This document shows positions 31,849 through 40,146 of a stretch of 64,000 bases of DNA, in pieces. Location of the stretch: NCBI GenBank assembly GCA_937146725.1, contig CAKZRU010000164.1, positions 103,133-167,132 of the forward strand. Direction: 5' to 3'. The position numbers and the translations under genes were made by a program. The notes beneath the pieces were generated by a model. That model searched no databases. It saw only the letters and a program-made list of their open reading frames with translations, and was not told the DNA's origin. This DNA is from an uncultured Myxococcales bacterium (GTDB taxonomy: Bacteria; Myxococcota_A; Bradymonadia; UBA7976; VGTA01). Each line of letters starts with the position of its first letter. Position 1 is the stretch's first letter.

Positions 31849-34800
31849 ATGGGTCATGGGCACGAGATACTATGCATATTTTATTTTTTAAACAATGGCA
31901 GAAAAATTTTGAGACGACTCAATAGAACAATTTACATTCATGATGAGGTAAACGAACAGCTAGAACGAGATCGCAAAGATCTTGCGCCTCGCTTTGCTAT
32001 GCTCTGTCGACAGCTTGGAGTAAGCGAATGGGTTCGTTTTAAGCCAACCAAAGGCGATAATGCGGGTTGGCGCCGAAGCCCTTTAGGAGGTAATAATGGT
32101 AGTCACTATTATATGTGGTGGCTCATTGCCGGTGCCGGTCCGGGAAAGCAATTAGAGCTTGAACAACAAGATATTGCCATTCGTGCCATTCGACACCATG
32201 ACTTAACCGACAAAAAACTTCATCATGGAGATTTGGATGACTATTGGGAATTTAAGTTTGCTGAAGAGCTAGATGATGAGCAAGTTTTAGAACAGCCATG
32301 GACGGAAGATCAGCAAGCCTACATAGAGCAAAAAGATGATTGCCAAGTCCTTATTGGGCCACCAGGCTCAGGAAAAACCTCAAGTCTATGGCGTGCGTTA
32401 GAGCTTGCTTTATTAGAAACACGTACTTTGAGTACACAAGATCAGCAAGCACGAGCCTTGTATATTACTTGGTCCACCCGTCTTGCTGAAAGTGCCGAAC
32501 AGTATTTTTCCATTATGGCGCCAGGTGAAGTGCAAGTTTATGACCTAACAAGCTTGCTTGCTAAGGCACTTTCAAGCGACCTTGAACGCTTGGGTATACA
32601 AAGTTCTCGACTACGTTTTCAAAGCTTAATCGAAAATATGAAAAGCAAGTACGCCCTTAAGAAAAAGGCCTTAGAGCGTATTGATCATTATTATGATTTG
32701 ATTCGGGCTTGGGTATTTGGACGCTCTGTATGGCAAATGAAACGCGTTGGCGATGTTAAGTCCAATGATGAACAAGATCGTCTCATACAAGATGAACTCA
32801 AAGATGCTGTACGTTTATATGAAGCCTTAAACTTAAGTGATGAGCAAATTAAGTATGTTTTTCCGGAACTACAGGCTGCCAAGCAAGTTGCTGAACTAGA
32901 GCAGGATTTAGCTTTTCCTTCCGAAACCCTTAGTTCTAAATATGCCTTTGTTGTTGTTGATGAAGTTCAAGACCTAACCCCTCTTGAATTAAAAGCTTCT
33001 TTAGATATTGCTCAAGCTTTGTCTCAGGCACATCCTCGGCTGTTTTTGGCGGGTGATGAAGGCCAAGTGGTTCGGCCAACCTTTTTTCAGTTTGCTGAAC
33101 TCAATGACCAACTTTTTGAACGTGGTTATCATCCACAAAGCACCACCTTGGCCTCCAACCTACGCTGTCCAAAAGTAATCGCGGATACTGTGATTAGAGC
33201 TAAGGCCTTCAACAAGCTACTCCCCACCAAATACCGTCCTTCTGATCAAGCGGTTCGAGCCTCTAGTTATGAAACAGAAGCCTTAGTCGCTTTAGCACAC
33301 TTTAAAGAGCAAAGTGAATGTAAGCGTCTTATCGAAACATTAGCACTTAATCCAAACGTCTATTTTATTGAGCTATTTGAAGACGAAACACGGCTAGAAA
33401 AAGATCTTGGGCATCTGGGTGAACTCAGAAAGGTCTTTAATACCTCTGAAACTGTGAAGGGCTTAGAGTTCGCAAGTGTCTGTATTGTAGGTGCTTCAGC
33501 GCTGATCCGCTCATTAAATTCAGAAAGAGCCAAGCAAGATCCTATTGCCTTTCGCCTGGATGTCAATCGCCTAAGAGTTGCGATGAGTCGTGCAGTTGAG
33601 CACTTGATCTTTATTGAACCTTTTTCAATGGTCAGCGAAGCTCTTCGTGAGCTTATTGGCGGACAGGCCTTAAGTGATACATGGCAGCAAGCTCTAAGCT
33701 ACAATGAAATGATACAGAGTGATTTATCACAGGGGCTATGCGTAAAGTTATCGGCTCTTAATGAACTTCTGAGTGCCCAAGATTTAAGTGTTGATGAGCG
33801 AGTACAGGGCTTTATCAAACGAGTCGAGCGTCTCTTTTTTGATGAATATAGAGCAAATGAAGCCTATGAAGATCTCTTACTTGCCCTTGAGCTAAGTGAA
33901 GATAGTGGTGAACTTAGTGATGACTTACAAAAGACTTTGAATGAACTCGCAGCTAGAATTGCTTTAAGTGAAGCGTTTCAAGTCCCTAAATTAAGAGTTC
34001 TCAAGCAACAACAACTCAATCACCCCTTACTTCGAGCAAGCTTAAGGTTAGTCGGAGATGATTCCTTACTCCGCTTAATGGATACAATGTGGCTTTGGTC
34101 CGGTAAAGATCATTCTAGTGAAGATCATTCTAGCGAGCCCGCTTTTCCAAGTATAACAAACTCTGATTTTGAAATACTACAAACCCTTTATACTTTATTC
34201 TGTGAGCCCAAGCTTAGCTCTTTATCATGGCTCTCAAAAATCATAAATATTTATAAGTGGCGCTTATTTGAGGCACTATTAAATGTCAGTTCGGTTGAAG
34301 TTCTTCAGCTTGAAAACATTGAGAATATTCTTCAATTTATGGGCTTTGATGAGGAAGAAAGTCTACCTTTAGCACTTAAGTTTAGGCGTATGTCCTTTGA
34401 TGCACTCATTGGGCATCAACATCAGCGAGCAGCTTCTATTTGGCAAGATGTAGTGAGTCAAGCTACAGAAGATCAGCTCAGAACGGCTCAGCTATTTATG
34501 GCCCAAGCCGAGTTTTATAGAGCGGCGAAGTTATATGAGTCACTCAATCGGCTTGATGAAGCTTTTAAGGCTTATCGACAGGCTGGAGCCTTTGATGAAG
34601 CCGGTCGACTGATTGAAAGTCATTCTTTAGAGCAGTTAGAGCAAAGCTCTATTACTAGTTTAGAGTTGATCACTGTGCTTAGTCGCTATCTTAAACGATA
34701 TCCCTTAAGCGAAGAAGAAAAAAGCCACTTTTACCATTTTGGTGATCAAGAAATCGCCCTAATTAGAGAGGAACTAGAAAGCCAAAAACAGCAACTTACT

Positions 34801-36867
34801 CATCGCATTGAGCAAGTCAATGAAGATCATGAAACTCTCAAGCTAGAGCAAAAAAAATTGTCGCTTGCTTCGGAGGAGTTGCAGCAAGCTCAATATCGAA
34901 TTGAAGCCAAAGAAAATGAACTTAAGCGCCAACATAAAAGCTTGGGAAGAGGCCTCAAAGAAATCACGACGCAACTGAGTGGAGCGTATCCACAACTCGA
35001 TGAAGGCGCTCATGTTGCACAACCGATAAATAAGCCGAATGAGATCGCTAAAACTCAACTCCCAACTGATCAAGCTCAACAAGTTGAGTCAACACCAATA
35101 GCCTTAGCCGATTTGGTGTCACTCACAGAAACTTTGGATGCTTTGCCGGCGCTTGGGCAACAGCAGATTTACCAAGCTGAGTTACAAGCAAAGGAGCAAG
35201 AACTAATTCAAAGGGCTCAAGAACTCTCACATAAAGAGCTAGGAATTAGACGACAGCGTAACCGTTTAGAGCTTGTAAAAGAACGTTTAGATCAAACTCA
35301 AGCTAAATTAGAGCAAGAGCAACAGAGCTTACAAAGATTGCAAGCTCAATTACAGGAGCAAACGCTTGGGCTAGCTGTCCGTGAAGAACAGGTTAAAGAG
35401 CAGGAAAATAAACAAAAACAAGCACAAAATGAACTAAAAGAACACCAAGTATTTCAGCAGCAGCAAGAACATAAGCTTCGAGCTACTTTAAGCCAAATCA
35501 CTCTAGAACAAGAGCGCCTTGAGTCCACAATCTCCAAATCAGAAAAAGCCGAGCAAAAAGCATATGAAGCGCAGCAGAAAAATGAACGATATGCTGAAGA
35601 ACTTAGCTTACGAGAAGAACGTTTAGAGCGTAAAACTAAGGAATTAGAAGCCCGACTTAAGGACTTTGAAAACCGAGAAGCGCGTTGGGAAGAAGAAGCG
35701 CATGCCTTAAGTGCCTTCTATCCTGCAGTGGGGGCCCTTGAGCAAAGTAATGAGCAAAGCTCTTTGGCTTCAGAGGAGTTTGAGCAGGCATCGGCTTTGT
35801 CAACTCATCCTTCTTCTCCGGAAAGTCTGCCTCCTTCTGCCCTATCTGATGGTGATGATTGGTTGCCTCGCTATACATCGACTGCCATCAAGGTTGTACC
35901 GGCTCAAATGAGTTCTATGCCTGTTCCTATACCTCCGGTGAGCGAACTCTCAAATGATGAATCCCTCACCGAGCAAAGTGCCAAGCAAAGTAATGAATAT
36001 GAGCCCAACGAACAACAGGACACGGAAGTCGATCTTAAGCCTATTGTGGACGAAGCTCACTTACCATTGCCCAAGTGGTTTGAAAAGCAGACTGATCAAA
36101 GTTTAACAATACTGCAAGCGGGTACAGTCATTGTCGATCAAATCGAGTCCTTAGCAATAAACTTAGTCTATTGTCCAAGTGGTCTATTCACGATGGGATC
36201 TGAGCGTGGAGAACCCTCAGAAAGCCCATGTCATGAAGTTCAAATCAGCCGAGCTTTACTGATGGGACAAAGCTTGGTCACTCAACGTTTATGGGCTTTA
36301 GTAATGGGCTTTTCACCAAGTCGCTTTATTGATCCTGAAAGACCAGTGGAACGGGTTACTTGGCATGAAGCGGTTCAATTTTGTAATCGTCTAAGTACCC
36401 TAGGTGGATATAAACCCTGCTATCAAGTTCAAGTGAATGGCCATGCCATCCTTAATCTTGAGGCTAATGGATATCGCTTACCAAGTGAGGCCGAATGGGA
36501 ATATAGTGCTAAAGCTGGTGAGAGCGATCTATTTGCCGGCAGTCAAAGAGCGCTTGATGTGGCATGGAGTTCAAGAAGCGCTCGAGGTGAAAGCAAGGTG
36601 GTTATGCAAAAAGCACCTAATGCTTGGGGACTATATGATATGTGTGGAAATGTTGCCGAATGGTGTACCGATGTAGCGAGTACATATGAGCATCGTCCCA
36701 AACGATCACTCGATCCCTTCTTTGATGCTGAACAAGGGGATCGAATCATCAGAGGCGGCGCTTGGTCATGCTCAGCCTATTTATGCCGAGTAAGTAGCCG
36801 AGGAAGCGCGCCAAGTACAGCTCGTGGCCCTGATATTGGCCTACGTATCTGTCGACAGGCAACTTAA
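31849..36867 (+). CDS. Superfamily 1 (UvrD-like) helicase fused via coiled coil to a C-terminal FGE/SUMF1-like domain
   Basis: GPPGSGKTSS (motif I), VVVDEVQDLT (II), LAGDEGQ (III), ETVKGLEF (V), NRLRVAMSRAVEHLIFIE (VI); C-terminal GLFTMGSERGEPSESPCHEV...GLYDMCGNVAEWCTD...RIIRGGAWSCSAYLCRVSSRGSAP...IGLRICR. True start may be a later TTG near 31909. Confidence 0.85.
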   Translation: MGHGHEILCIFYFLNNGRKILRRLNRTIYIHDEVNEQLERDRKDLAPRFAMLCRQLGVSEWVRFKPTKGDNAGWRRSPLGGNNGSHYYMWWLIAGAGPGKQLELEQQDIAIRAIRHHDLTDKKLHHGDLDDYWEFKFAEELDDEQVLEQPWTEDQQAYIEQKDDCQVLIGPPGSGKTSSLWRALELALLETRTLSTQDQQARALYITWSTRLAESAEQYFSIMAPGEVQVYDLTSLLAKALSSDLERLGIQSSRLRFQSLIENMKSKYALKKKALERIDHYYDLIRAWVFGRSVWQMKRVGDVKSNDEQDRLIQDELKDAVRLYEALNLSDEQIKYVFPELQAAKQVAELEQDLAFPSETLSSKYAFVVVDEVQDLTPLELKASLDIAQALSQAHPRLFLAGDEGQVVRPTFFQFAELNDQLFERGYHPQSTTLASNLRCPKVIADTVIRAKAFNKLLPTKYRPSDQAVRASSYETEALVALAHFKEQSECKRLIETLALNPNVYFIELFEDETRLEKDLGHLGELRKVFNTSETVKGLEFASVCIVGASALIRSLNSERAKQDPIAFRLDVNRLRVAMSRAVEHLIFIEPFSMVSEALRELIGGQALSDTWQQALSYNEMIQSDLSQGLCVKLSALNELLSAQDLSVDERVQGFIKRVERLFFDEYRANEAYEDLLLALELSEDSGELSDDLQKTLNELAARIALSEAFQVPKLRVLKQQQLNHPLLRASLRLVGDDSLLRLMDTMWLWSGKDHSSEDHSSEPAFPSITNSDFEILQTLYTLFCEPKLSSLSWLSKIINIYKWRLFEALLNVSSVEVLQLENIENILQFMGFDEEESLPLALKFRRMSFDALIGHQHQRAASIWQDVVSQATEDQLRTAQLFMAQAEFYRAAKLYESLNRLDEAFKAYRQAGAFDEAGRLIESHSLEQLEQSSITSLELITVLSRYLKRYPLSEEEKSHFYHFGDQEIALIREELESQKQQLTHRIEQVNEDHETLKLEQKKLSLASEELQQAQYRIEAKENELKRQHKSLGRGLKEITTQLSGAYPQLDEGAHVAQPINKPNEIAKTQLPTDQAQQVESTPIALADLVSLTETLDALPALGQQQIYQAELQAKEQELIQRAQELSHKELGIRRQRNRLELVKERLDQTQAKLEQEQQSLQRLQAQLQEQTLGLAVREEQVKEQENKQKQAQNELKEHQVFQQQQEHKLRATLSQITLEQERLESTISKSEKAEQKAYEAQQKNERYAEELSLREERLERKTKELEARLKDFENREARWEEEAHALSAFYPAVGALEQSNEQSSLASEEFEQASALSTHPSSPESLPPSALSDGDDWLPRYTSTAIKVVPAQMSSMPVPIPPVSELSNDESLTEQSAKQSNEYEPNEQQDTEVDLKPIVDEAHLPLPKWFEKQTDQSLTILQAGTVIVDQIESLAINLVYCPSGLFTMGSERGEPSESPCHEVQISRALLMGQSLVTQRLWALVMGFSPSRFIDPERPVERVTWHEAVQFCNRLSTLGGYKPCYQVQVNGHAILNLEANGYRLPSEAEWEYSAKAGESDLFAGSQRALDVAWSSRSARGESKVVMQKAPNAWGLYDMCGNVAEWCTDVASTYEHRPKRSLDPFFDAEQGDRIIRGGAWSCSAYLCRVSSRGSAPSTARGPDIGLRICRQAT

Positions 36868-36868
36868 C

Positions 36869-39800
36869 TCATGGGGCCTTTCGTTGTCTGGTTGAAACGA
36901 CTGCGATAAGCAATAATAACCAAGCTAAGGAAAGAGGAGCTTGTTGACTTTGTTCACACCCTGAAACAGATTCGGCGACCTCGGTCATTTCAGCATTAGG
37001 ATCTTCAATCGGTGGAATATCTTGCACAAACTCGTTTTCAGGGTCGGGGTCGCCTGTGTTCATTTCTTCACCAGCCGACATTTCTTCACCAGCAGTGACT
37101 TCCGGCTCATTCATTGGTGGCTCAGTCCAAGCACCGACACATTGTGCCTTACCTTCTGCATCAAGTTCACATGCTTCACCAGCAGGGCACTCGACAGCTA
37201 AGCAAGCGTCAAAGCGACATTCGCCATAAACACATACAAAGCCTTCATCACAGCTTACATCACCACAGAGTTCGGCAATGCATGAGCCATTCACACACTC
37301 ATCACCAGCCCCACAAACAACATCAGTACATGGATCATCAATACAGCGACCATCCATACAATATTGGTCACCCGGACAGCTAATCACACCACAGCTATCA
37401 ACACAAACGCCATCACGACAGAACGCATTGTCTTCACAACTTACACCAAAGCAGGGGTTAACTTCGCAGCCATTTGGACCACAACGCTGTCCGTCTGGAC
37501 AAGGAATCTCTAAGCAAGACTCAATTTTACATTCACCTAAATAGCAGGCTTCACCCTCATTACAGCTGACTCCATCACAAGGATCAACACAGCGACCGGT
37601 TTCACAGACTTGACCATAGGCGCAATCAACATTGTGACATAGATCCACACAGAAACCATCTACACAAATACTATCTCCAAAGCATTCATTAGAATTACAA
37701 CGATCTACACATTCACCTTCAAAGCAGGTCGCTCCATTTGTACAAGTCGCTTCTTCATCGATTTGTCCATCGCAATCCTCATCAATACCATCACAGGTTT
37801 CAGCAGGAACATCACCGCATAAGCCACAGCTATTTCTAGTGCCTTCATCGATTAAGCCATCACAGTCACTATCAATCAAATCACAAACTTCGCTGGAAGC
37901 TGTATTTTCAGCATTACACTGCAGTTCACCGGCCACACAAACACTAGTACCCACCGAACACTGACCGGGCAAGTCGGTGAAGCAGGTCTGTCCCTCATCA
38001 ACCACCTGCTCATCGGTTTGACCATCACAGTCATCATCTAAGCCATTACATAGTTCTTCTTGAGCTGTGGTTAGAGGCTCACATATAACCTGCCCATTGT
38101 CACAGACTGGTACACCGATGCCACATGAGCCCCCACCAGGGACTTCACAGCGAGGAGAAAGAATAGGGTTTTCATCAATGACATTATCGCAGTCATTATC
38201 GATGCCATCGCAGATTTCAGGACCCACTACACCCACACAAGAGTCACAGGCATCTCCTAAACCATCACGATCATCATCGATTTGATCAGGATTAGGTACT
38301 AAAAGGCAGTTATCACAAGCATCACCAACACCATCACTATCCAAGTCCTCTTGGTTTGGATTAGGCAAGGCAACGCAGATATCACAAAGATCGCCCACGC
38401 CGTCTTGATCTCGATCAGCCTGATCAGGATTGAATAAGTCTACGCATACATCACAAGCATCACCAATGTTATCACCGTCATCATCGATTTGATCAGGATT
38501 AGCAACCGCCGGACAAGAGTCACACAGGTCACCAAGACCATCATCATCACTGTCAAGTTGATCAGGATTTGATACATTAGGACAGCTATCACATACATCA
38601 CCAAACCCATCTTGGTCTAAATCAAATTGTTCTGGATTAGCAGCATTTGGACAAGAGTCACACAAGTCACCTATACCATCACCATCAGCATCGATTTGAT
38701 CAGGGTTTGGTAGACTTGGACAATTATCTTCTGCATCACAAGCCTCATCACCATCAGAATCTACACAGCCACCACCTACAGAACGCTCTAACACTAATAA
38801 GGCGTATGAGTGTGCGGCAATTGCATTCCACTGGCCAAGGTTTGAGCTAATTTGTCCGGTTGATTCATTTTGTAAGCCCATCAAGGTGTAAGCATAGTCA
38901 TAATACCAACGAGGTTGTTCATGAATACTGTTATAATAACCTGCTCCACCAGCGCCACGTTGTGCGACACGTACATCAGTGGTAGGATCTCTTCTCATTA
39001 AACGACCGGATTCAGTAGGCGCCAAATTACTTGGTAAAGTCCCCAGAACACTTGTATCAAGATTACCAACATTAGCGATCGCACCGGAATCTTCCAAAAA
39101 GGTATAGGCTTTAGCAGAAGACCACATATAGTAAAGGTGAGCATTGATCCACGAGTTACGATAGCGAGCAATTGTTTGATAGTTATAACGAAGATAAAGC
39201 CAGCGCAAGTACTGTTGTACGGAAGGTGAGTTTAAGTCATAGCCACCAATAATTTGTGACCAAAGTCCGGAAGCGGTTTGCTGATAACTTGGTGAGTGGC
39301 CAGGACTATATCCAAAACCAGAGCCATCATTAGCTAGATTACCGACCCTTCCATTATTGGCATAAGCATTTGCAGCATTAGTGACCAATGTATTTAACTG
39401 TCCTAACCGAATCGGATCAGAAAAGCGAGGATCACTGAACACAGCTTTAGCACCTGCTAAACCTGCAACAACTAACTGAGTTGTTGAGGAGTCATTCCCC
39501 GGACCGCGATAGTGCCAAAAACCATATCCGCCTTGATTACTATTGATCCGATCAAAAATGCGATTAATCGCTGTAATTGCAGCTGCTGTATTTGGACCTC
39601 CGGTTCTCACATAAAGGGAGATTGCCATCAAATCTGCGCCATCGCGATAGGCATAAAATGAGGCTCCGGTCGCTCTATTAATGATATAAGTCATCAGCGT
39701 TTGGATTTTTTGTTGATCAGCCGGAGTAGCGTTTTCATAGCCGCTTGGAGAGGCATTTTGATCAGCACTCACTCTACGTTCTAGCATTGCTAAAGCAGCA

Positions 39801-40042
39801 AGACCTATTGCATTTTGATAGCCACCACTAAGACCGGCAGGATTGCTAAATACATTTTGGCTATCGAGCCAATCGATTCCATCATCAATCGCTGAAGCAA
39901 CATCACGACTAAAGTTTGTTTCTTCTGCCAAACTAGAGCTGGCTCCAAAAGAAGAAAAAACAAGGAAAAAACAAACGAACAAAGCAAGGCCTAACGGCGG
40001 CTTAGCTTGTTGCTGTTGCTGCAAATCACTTTTAGAATGCAT
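36869..40042 (-). CDS. Modular Cys-rich surface protein: prenyltransferase-like alpha-toroid, thrombospondin type-3, MopE-type and EGF-like repeats, MYXO-CTERM-like tail
   Basis: Repeats NPDQxDxDxDGxGDxCDxC, CDGIDxDCDGxxDE and C-x4-C-x5-C-x4-C; tail SGCEQSQQAPLSLAWLLLLIAVVSTRQRKAP; start MHSKSD preceded by GAGG (ORF track begins at 40069). Confidence 0.85.
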   Translation of the reverse strand: MHSKSDLQQQQQAKPPLGLALFVCFFLVFSSFGASSSLAEETNFSRDVASAIDDGIDWLDSQNVFSNPAGLSGGYQNAIGLAALAMLERRVSADQNASPSGYENATPADQQKIQTLMTYIINRATGASFYAYRDGADLMAISLYVRTGGPNTAAAITAINRIFDRINSNQGGYGFWHYRGPGNDSSTTQLVVAGLAGAKAVFSDPRFSDPIRLGQLNTLVTNAANAYANNGRVGNLANDGSGFGYSPGHSPSYQQTASGLWSQIIGGYDLNSPSVQQYLRWLYLRYNYQTIARYRNSWINAHLYYMWSSAKAYTFLEDSGAIANVGNLDTSVLGTLPSNLAPTESGRLMRRDPTTDVRVAQRGAGGAGYYNSIHEQPRWYYDYAYTLMGLQNESTGQISSNLGQWNAIAAHSYALLVLERSVGGGCVDSDGDEACDAEDNCPSLPNPDQIDADGDGIGDLCDSCPNAANPEQFDLDQDGFGDVCDSCPNVSNPDQLDSDDDGLGDLCDSCPAVANPDQIDDDGDNIGDACDVCVDLFNPDQADRDQDGVGDLCDICVALPNPNQEDLDSDGVGDACDNCLLVPNPDQIDDDRDGLGDACDSCVGVVGPEICDGIDNDCDNVIDENPILSPRCEVPGGGSCGIGVPVCDNGQVICEPLTTAQEELCNGLDDDCDGQTDEQVVDEGQTCFTDLPGQCSVGTSVCVAGELQCNAENTASSEVCDLIDSDCDGLIDEGTRNSCGLCGDVPAETCDGIDEDCDGQIDEEATCTNGATCFEGECVDRCNSNECFGDSICVDGFCVDLCHNVDCAYGQVCETGRCVDPCDGVSCNEGEACYLGECKIESCLEIPCPDGQRCGPNGCEVNPCFGVSCEDNAFCRDGVCVDSCGVISCPGDQYCMDGRCIDDPCTDVVCGAGDECVNGSCIAELCGDVSCDEGFVCVYGECRFDACLAVECPAGEACELDAEGKAQCVGAWTEPPMNEPEVTAGEEMSAGEEMNTGDPDPENEFVQDIPPIEDPNAEMTEVAESVSGCEQSQQAPLSLAWLLLLIAVVSTRQRKAP

Positions 40043-40146
40043 AACATCAACCTCAGTATCTAACATCAAAGTAAATAGGTAAATATACCCTCTTCTTAGT
40101 TTATACTGATTTATAAAAGACTTAGCTAAAGCTATTTTGCTTTATA

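Follow-up and report, generated by a model that had tools for sequence, protein, structure and literature searches.

The window, by which we mean the whole stretch of 64,000 nucleotides analysed here (from an uncultured Myxococcales bacterium), carries at 31849-36867 on its forward strand one intact reading frame with no internal stops, in which we distinguish the following features.

31849..36867, + strand: whole open reading frame, 1672 codons from the ATG at 31849
31921..32268, + strand: predicted RelE/YoeB-fold N-terminal domain, residues about 25-140 (AF2 and Foldseek)
32296..33663, + strand: UvrD-like SF1 helicase core, residues about 150-605 (Pfam AAA_19 and UvrD-helicase, motifs, Foldseek matches to UvrD/Rep/PcrA)
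33721..34728, + strand: alpha-helical, TPR-like repeat region, residues about 625-960 (all-helical in the AF2 model; weak TPR_8 match, E 0.13)
34741..34983, + strand: coiled-coil segment 1, residues about 965-1045 (helix 965-1032 in the model; hydrophobic period of 3.5 residues)
35161..35733, + strand: coiled-coil segment 2, residues about 1105-1295 (composition and 3.5-residue period)
36157..36858, + strand: FGE-sulfatase (C-type-lectin-type) domain, residues 1437-1670 (Pfam PF03781; cysteine pair C1641/C1646)

The true start of the gene is likely the in-frame TTG at 31909 (residue 21), because homology to the orthologue in a genome of the same genus (G001) begins at that residue. This genome encodes a full-length relative with 52.5-55% identity (55% over residues 21-1670) and an identical domain order, and around it seven genes of the window are found in unchanged order. 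The initial annotation had allowed for an assembly fusion of two genes; such a joining of separate genes by assembly error or frameshift, for which we found no supporting evidence, is effectively ruled out by a full-length orthologue in another assembly with conserved neighbours. At least two species thus encode the RelE-fold domain, SF1 motor, helical repeats, long coil, and FGE domain in this order in a single gene. Identity to the G001 protein varies by domain: 84% in the N-terminal domain, 69% in the helicase, 47% in the helical repeats, about 30% in the coils (31% in segment 2), and 67% in the FGE domain, a pattern indicating that both ends and the motor are under constraint and that the coils behave like spacers.

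The N-terminal domain, the most informative part as to function, had been missed in the initial annotation. A domain search of residues 1-150, which had been proposed there, succeeded by structure but not by profile: the AF2 model (pLDDT 83.8, pTM 0.73) has the secondary structure of a RelE-type protein plus one extra short helix, and a Pfam search of residues 25-140 matched no family. In a Foldseek comparison with the PDB, ranks 1-14 are all RelE/YoeB/YafQ-type proteins (probability 0.93-1.00), the best being the YoeB/ParE toxin 6n90 (E 2e-3, probability 1.00, TM 0.71 by target length), and rank 15 is Cami1, which we take to be a CRISPR-associated RelE-type ribonuclease. Neither Pfam, PDB profile search, nor hhalign gave a sequence link to RelE, YoeB, or ArmD, and residues 25-140 are accordingly described here as a predicted RelE-fold domain whose membership is by fold only. 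No other part of the protein is as well conserved, and the domain has changed more slowly than the motor. Across 11 family members from several phyla, H31, K65, G73, R76, G80, G84, Y88, R112, R115, H117, and D118 are invariant, and W74 and H116 nearly so; the invariant H, K, R, Y, R, R, H, and D suggest a putative active site. The last main strand retains an HHD motif at its end. In YoeB, GFWSRR and RYHY may be the counterparts of the GWRR stretch and the RHHD strand end, a correspondence based on order and secondary structure, as no sequence method joins these families.

Downstream of this domain, the UvrD-like SF1 motifs, including those quoted in the initial annotation, could be located residue by residue: Walker A GPPGSGKTSS at 170-179, LAGDEGQ at 400-406, NLR at 437-439, ETVKGLEF at 534-541, VAMSRA at 577-582, and Walker B VVVDEVQDLT at 368-377. 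All are intact, and Walker A and B, motifs III-VI, and the two-RecA-domain core of SF1 UvrD/Rep helicases are all present. Pfam and Foldseek agree with this assignment, with AAA_19 matched at 161-408 (E 1.1e-5), UvrD-helicase also matched when the N-terminal 1003 residues were searched alone (E 5.5e-5), and UvrD, PcrA, and Rep as the best structural matches of an AF2 model of residues 11-1033 (2is4, E 1.9e-10). There are also Foldseek matches and a weak profile resemblance of the helicase to the RNA-polymerase recycling motors HelR/HelD. From residue 634 onward the model is all-helical, which bears out the helices previously described as TPR-like, but their assignment to TPR is weak by profile. 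Likewise, a coiled coil is present, but as two segments of about 80 and 190 residues divided by low-complexity linkers rather than as one of about 450.

The C-terminal FGE-like domain was correctly recognized from the outset: Pfam PF03781 matches at 1439-1668 with E 1.1e-33 and 117.5 bits, against a gathering cut-off of 23.3. Its nearest PDB relative is the Treponema denticola variable protein 1 (TvpA; 2y3c, E 9.5e-38), while true FGEs match at E about 1e-11. The genome of the window (G000, 5.7 Mb) holds 73 FGE-sulfatase domain matches, on kinases and on TPR, pentapeptide-repeat, and Cys-rich repeat proteins, and its other C-termini include kinase-coil-FGE (L138), long coil-FGE (L141), and TPR-FGE (L126) arrangements, with coils judged by eye. 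The earlier remark that FGE-like domains serve as C-terminal modules on kinases and NTPases therefore finds a direct example in the same genome. In addition, a kinase-FGE protein with a coil-like stretch, also by eye, occurs in a related genome (G002, L192). Because coil-FGE and TPR-FGE ends occur on other proteins of the lineage, the FGE tail appears to be a mobile module of this lineage. One reading frame of the genome (C146) carries at least three FGE domains. We considered whether the tail might be a DGR target and rejected this, as the last 168 bp match only themselves genome-wide apart from hits of 17-22 bp, with no adenine-directed template repeat. The strongest reverse transcriptase match in the genome (C94:14194-15480, L198) lies close to two FGE genes, and a mismatch-at-A scan of contig C94 found no template/variable repeat. 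By eye, the start of this reverse transcriptase resembles a group II intron enzyme.

The unit of RelE-fold domain, UvrD helicase, and helical repeats (about 930 residues) constitutes a sparse family. Searches of genome contigs with a single protein query returned no relative, and an alignment query did; with a profile of the N-terminal domain and helicase, members turned up in 17 of the 379 phylum genomes searched. Outside the phylum they occur in Acidobacteriota, Dehalococcoidia, Chthoniobacter, and Aminicenantes. Most closed members stop about 850-920 residues past the GW motif, without coil or FGE domain. In the tree, the window protein clusters with G001, G002, and the pair G018/G024 (support 92/94). 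Coils are present in G000, G001, and G018; in G002 the contig ends within the coil of the homologue, and the G024 sequence is cut before the coil region. The FGE tail on a RelE-helicase protein was seen only in this genus, with the contig of the G002 homologue ending before the tail, and the readable FGE-bearing contigs of G002 encode other proteins, e.g., kinase, TPR, and pentapeptide proteins. The G018 homologue (L022:6529-7008, - strand) has, after its coil, a C-terminal stretch of about 150 residues without a Pfam match instead of an FGE domain. The simplest history from these sequences would be that the coil was gained in the clade of the window protein and the FGE domain added in or before this genus. 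The tree suggests spread by transfer, since members from another taxonomic family of the same order group with those from other phyla, although support for two of the branches there is weak. In some members (L004, L033, L035, L115) an extra stretch, IF2-N-type-like by eye, precedes the RelE-fold domain.

The gene is flanked upstream by a divergent gene of 305 residues, 21 bp away, and downstream by an abutting convergent gene of 1066 residues; neither is small or antitoxin-like, and there is no adjacent cognate antitoxin of the kind that defines type II toxin-antitoxin systems. The neighbours read as a serine protease, an outer-membrane-type protein, a Cys-rich repeat protein, a PrmC-like methylase, and a kinase, and no defence genes lie beside the gene within the 64-kb window. 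The locus, syntenic with G001 and outside any defence island, looks vertically inherited. Abutting the gene at 36869-40069 (- strand) is a large Cys-rich, calcium-repeat-type surface protein, whose orthologue is also the next gene in G001. Elsewhere in the family, the neighbours of two members (L026:1061-5315 and L033:10857-15270) appear by eye to be AAA ATPase, Schlafen/AlbA-type, and winged-helix nuclease-like genes, possibly a conflict-gene context, and two others (L027 and L028) are surrounded by genes that look, by eye, like housekeeping genes.

The architecture described above is well supported. For the function, our leading interpretation, to which we give somewhat less than an even chance, is that this is a single-chain conflict protein of the ArmD kind, combining sensor (FGE), motor (SF1), and nuclease (RelE), antiphage or anti-plasmid, and working without antitoxin or ARMADA partners. 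The FGE domain, by analogy a ligand sensor, would bind a partner protein or a signal of invasion or damage. Multimer formation or signal relay would fall to the coils and helical repeats, with the coil as multimer or lever, and the SF1 motor would travel on DNA or RNA. At rest, the RelE-fold domain would be restrained within the chain, which we propose because no antitoxin gene is adjacent. Once the motor or sensor was engaged, it would block translation, whether by cutting RNA (by analogy, mRNA on the ribosome) or in another way. In favour of such a conflict role are the RelE/YoeB fold in the most conserved domain, its polar invariants across several phyla, the intact motor motifs, and the GajB profile matches, as well as the requirement for ArmD, a protein of the same plan, in protection (PMC12458937). 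The patchy distribution (17/379), the interspersion of other-phyla members in the tree, and the lack of a small antitoxin-like neighbour point the same way, and on conflict proteins of the STAND and VMAP types FGE/CLec domains have been proposed to sense invaders (PMC7159879, PMC10907252). The main point against it is the syntenic, non-island locus with no defence genes alongside in the window; in addition, RelE membership is by fold only, and the contexts of the relatives are mixed. The sensing or defence role that the initial annotation called plausible but unproven is still no more than plausible; the locus itself lies outside a defence island. A more specific version, which we regard as possible but doubtful, is that a single gene encodes an immune receptor needing no antitoxin, whose C-type-lectin-type FGE sensor would control a RelE-type RNase via the coil and SF1 motor. 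It would be a stand-alone, sensor-equipped counterpart of ArmD that arose when the lineage's expanded FGE module was added to an old RelE-helicase family.

Two other explanations are, in our view, unlikely to a similar degree. On one hand, the protein might serve housekeeping quality control, with the RelE-fold domain docking on the ribosomal A site or RNA, the motor clearing stalled complexes (in transcription-translation conflict or mRNA rescue), and the FGE domain acting as a lineage-specific docking module. Its single copy and syntenic chromosomal position in two species, together with the resemblance to HelR/HelD, would fit this role; however, a presence in 17 of 379 genomes is atypically sparse for it, and the invariant polar residues are in keeping with an active site. 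On the other hand, the protein might be a UvrD-type helicase of DNA repair or recombination, with an inert, nucleic-acid-binding RelE-fold domain and extensions that localise it. UvrD/Rep/PcrA are indeed the top structural matches, and ParE-type members of the RelE superfamily function without RNase activity (PMC11980606), but against an inert domain stand the HHD motif that the N-terminal part retains and its slower evolution compared with the motor. It is very unlikely, finally, that the FGE domain works as a copper oxidase of the formylglycine type and modifies a partner, which would make the protein a modifying enzyme on a motor scaffold. C1641 and C1646 are present, align with the cysteine pair of human FGE, and are kept in G001, and among 20 parsed C-termini of G000 just one other has the same CxxxxC; however, three residues found in human FGE are missing just after the pair, and the best PDB match, TvpA, is a DGR variable, binding protein.

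In the open-access literature, the only RelE-helicase fusion with a published role that we found is ArmD, one of the four parts of ARMADA. The window family has the same pairing alone, in several phyla, with C-terminal parts that are interchangeable (helical repeats only, coil, or coil and FGE), and a second helicase family adds ankyrin as a further C-terminal variant. Two questions thereby become testable: whether a RelE-type nuclease is governed by the motor of its own chain in the absence of an antitoxin, and whether FGE/C-type-lectin domains, which are widespread, have a sensor role in proteins without hypermutation.

ArmD of the antiphage system ARMADA type II has an N-terminal RelE-like domain fused to a GajB-like UvrD helicase, a plan that the window protein shares, and its deletion or the Walker A mutation K266A abolishes phage protection (PMC12458937). 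The ArmD compared here (E. coli ATCC 8739 ECOLC_RS20870, WP_000218176.1), found in an annotated island beside a tRNA-Phe gene, has 704 residues versus 1672 and lacks the helical-repeat, coil, and FGE extensions. It is accompanied by ArmA, ArmB, and ArmC, whereas no ArmA helicase, ArmB methyltransferase, or ArmC YprA-like helicase lies near the window gene; with no full-length match to ArmD either, we reject ARMADA membership. By hhalign against the family profile, only 83 helicase columns of ArmD align (97.4%), and its RelE-like domain has no sequence match to the family N-terminal domain (0.3%). The Gabija helicase GajB is likewise a UvrD-like SF1 motor, and GajB profiles of PADLOC match the family helicases weakly (best 3e-9); however, no GajA-type nuclease gene adjoins the window gene, and to our knowledge GajB has no RelE-like, coil, or FGE domain.

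Also similar in plan is a family of helicase-ankyrin proteins of about 885-1026 residues (L037-L099 among others, e.g., L076:7626-10595) from many proteobacteria, Bacteroidota, Nitrospirae, and others, which combine an N-terminal domain of RelE-like pattern, a UvrD-like core, and variable C-terminal repeats, with ankyrin repeats where the window family has TPR-like helices. The UvrD-like cores are homologous over 400 columns (hhalign E 3e-29), supporting common descent of the motors. The N-terminal domains of the two families do not match each other by profile, and that of the helicase-ankyrin family has no Pfam entry, one member only touching YoeB_toxin (E 0.055). At the other end of the protein, nSTAND1-EAD8-FGE and VMAP-FGS proteins also carry a C-terminal FGE-type C-type-lectin domain on an NTPase (PMC10907252, PMC7159879), but the window locus has neither the DGR repeat nor the STAND, MoxR, or vWA partner of such conflict and DGR systems. 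The kinase-coiled coil-FGE proteins L138 and L192 share the coil-then-FGE C-terminal plan and differ in having an N-terminal protein kinase in place of the RelE-helicase. The initial annotation knew of no standard family with this domain order, and we did not find the whole order either, nor, in the open-access literature, a stand-alone multi-phylum RelE-helicase family or its coil-FGE extension; its front half, however, is already published in kind as ArmD (PMC12458937). With the RelE-helicase pairing already known, what appears new is the FGE tail.
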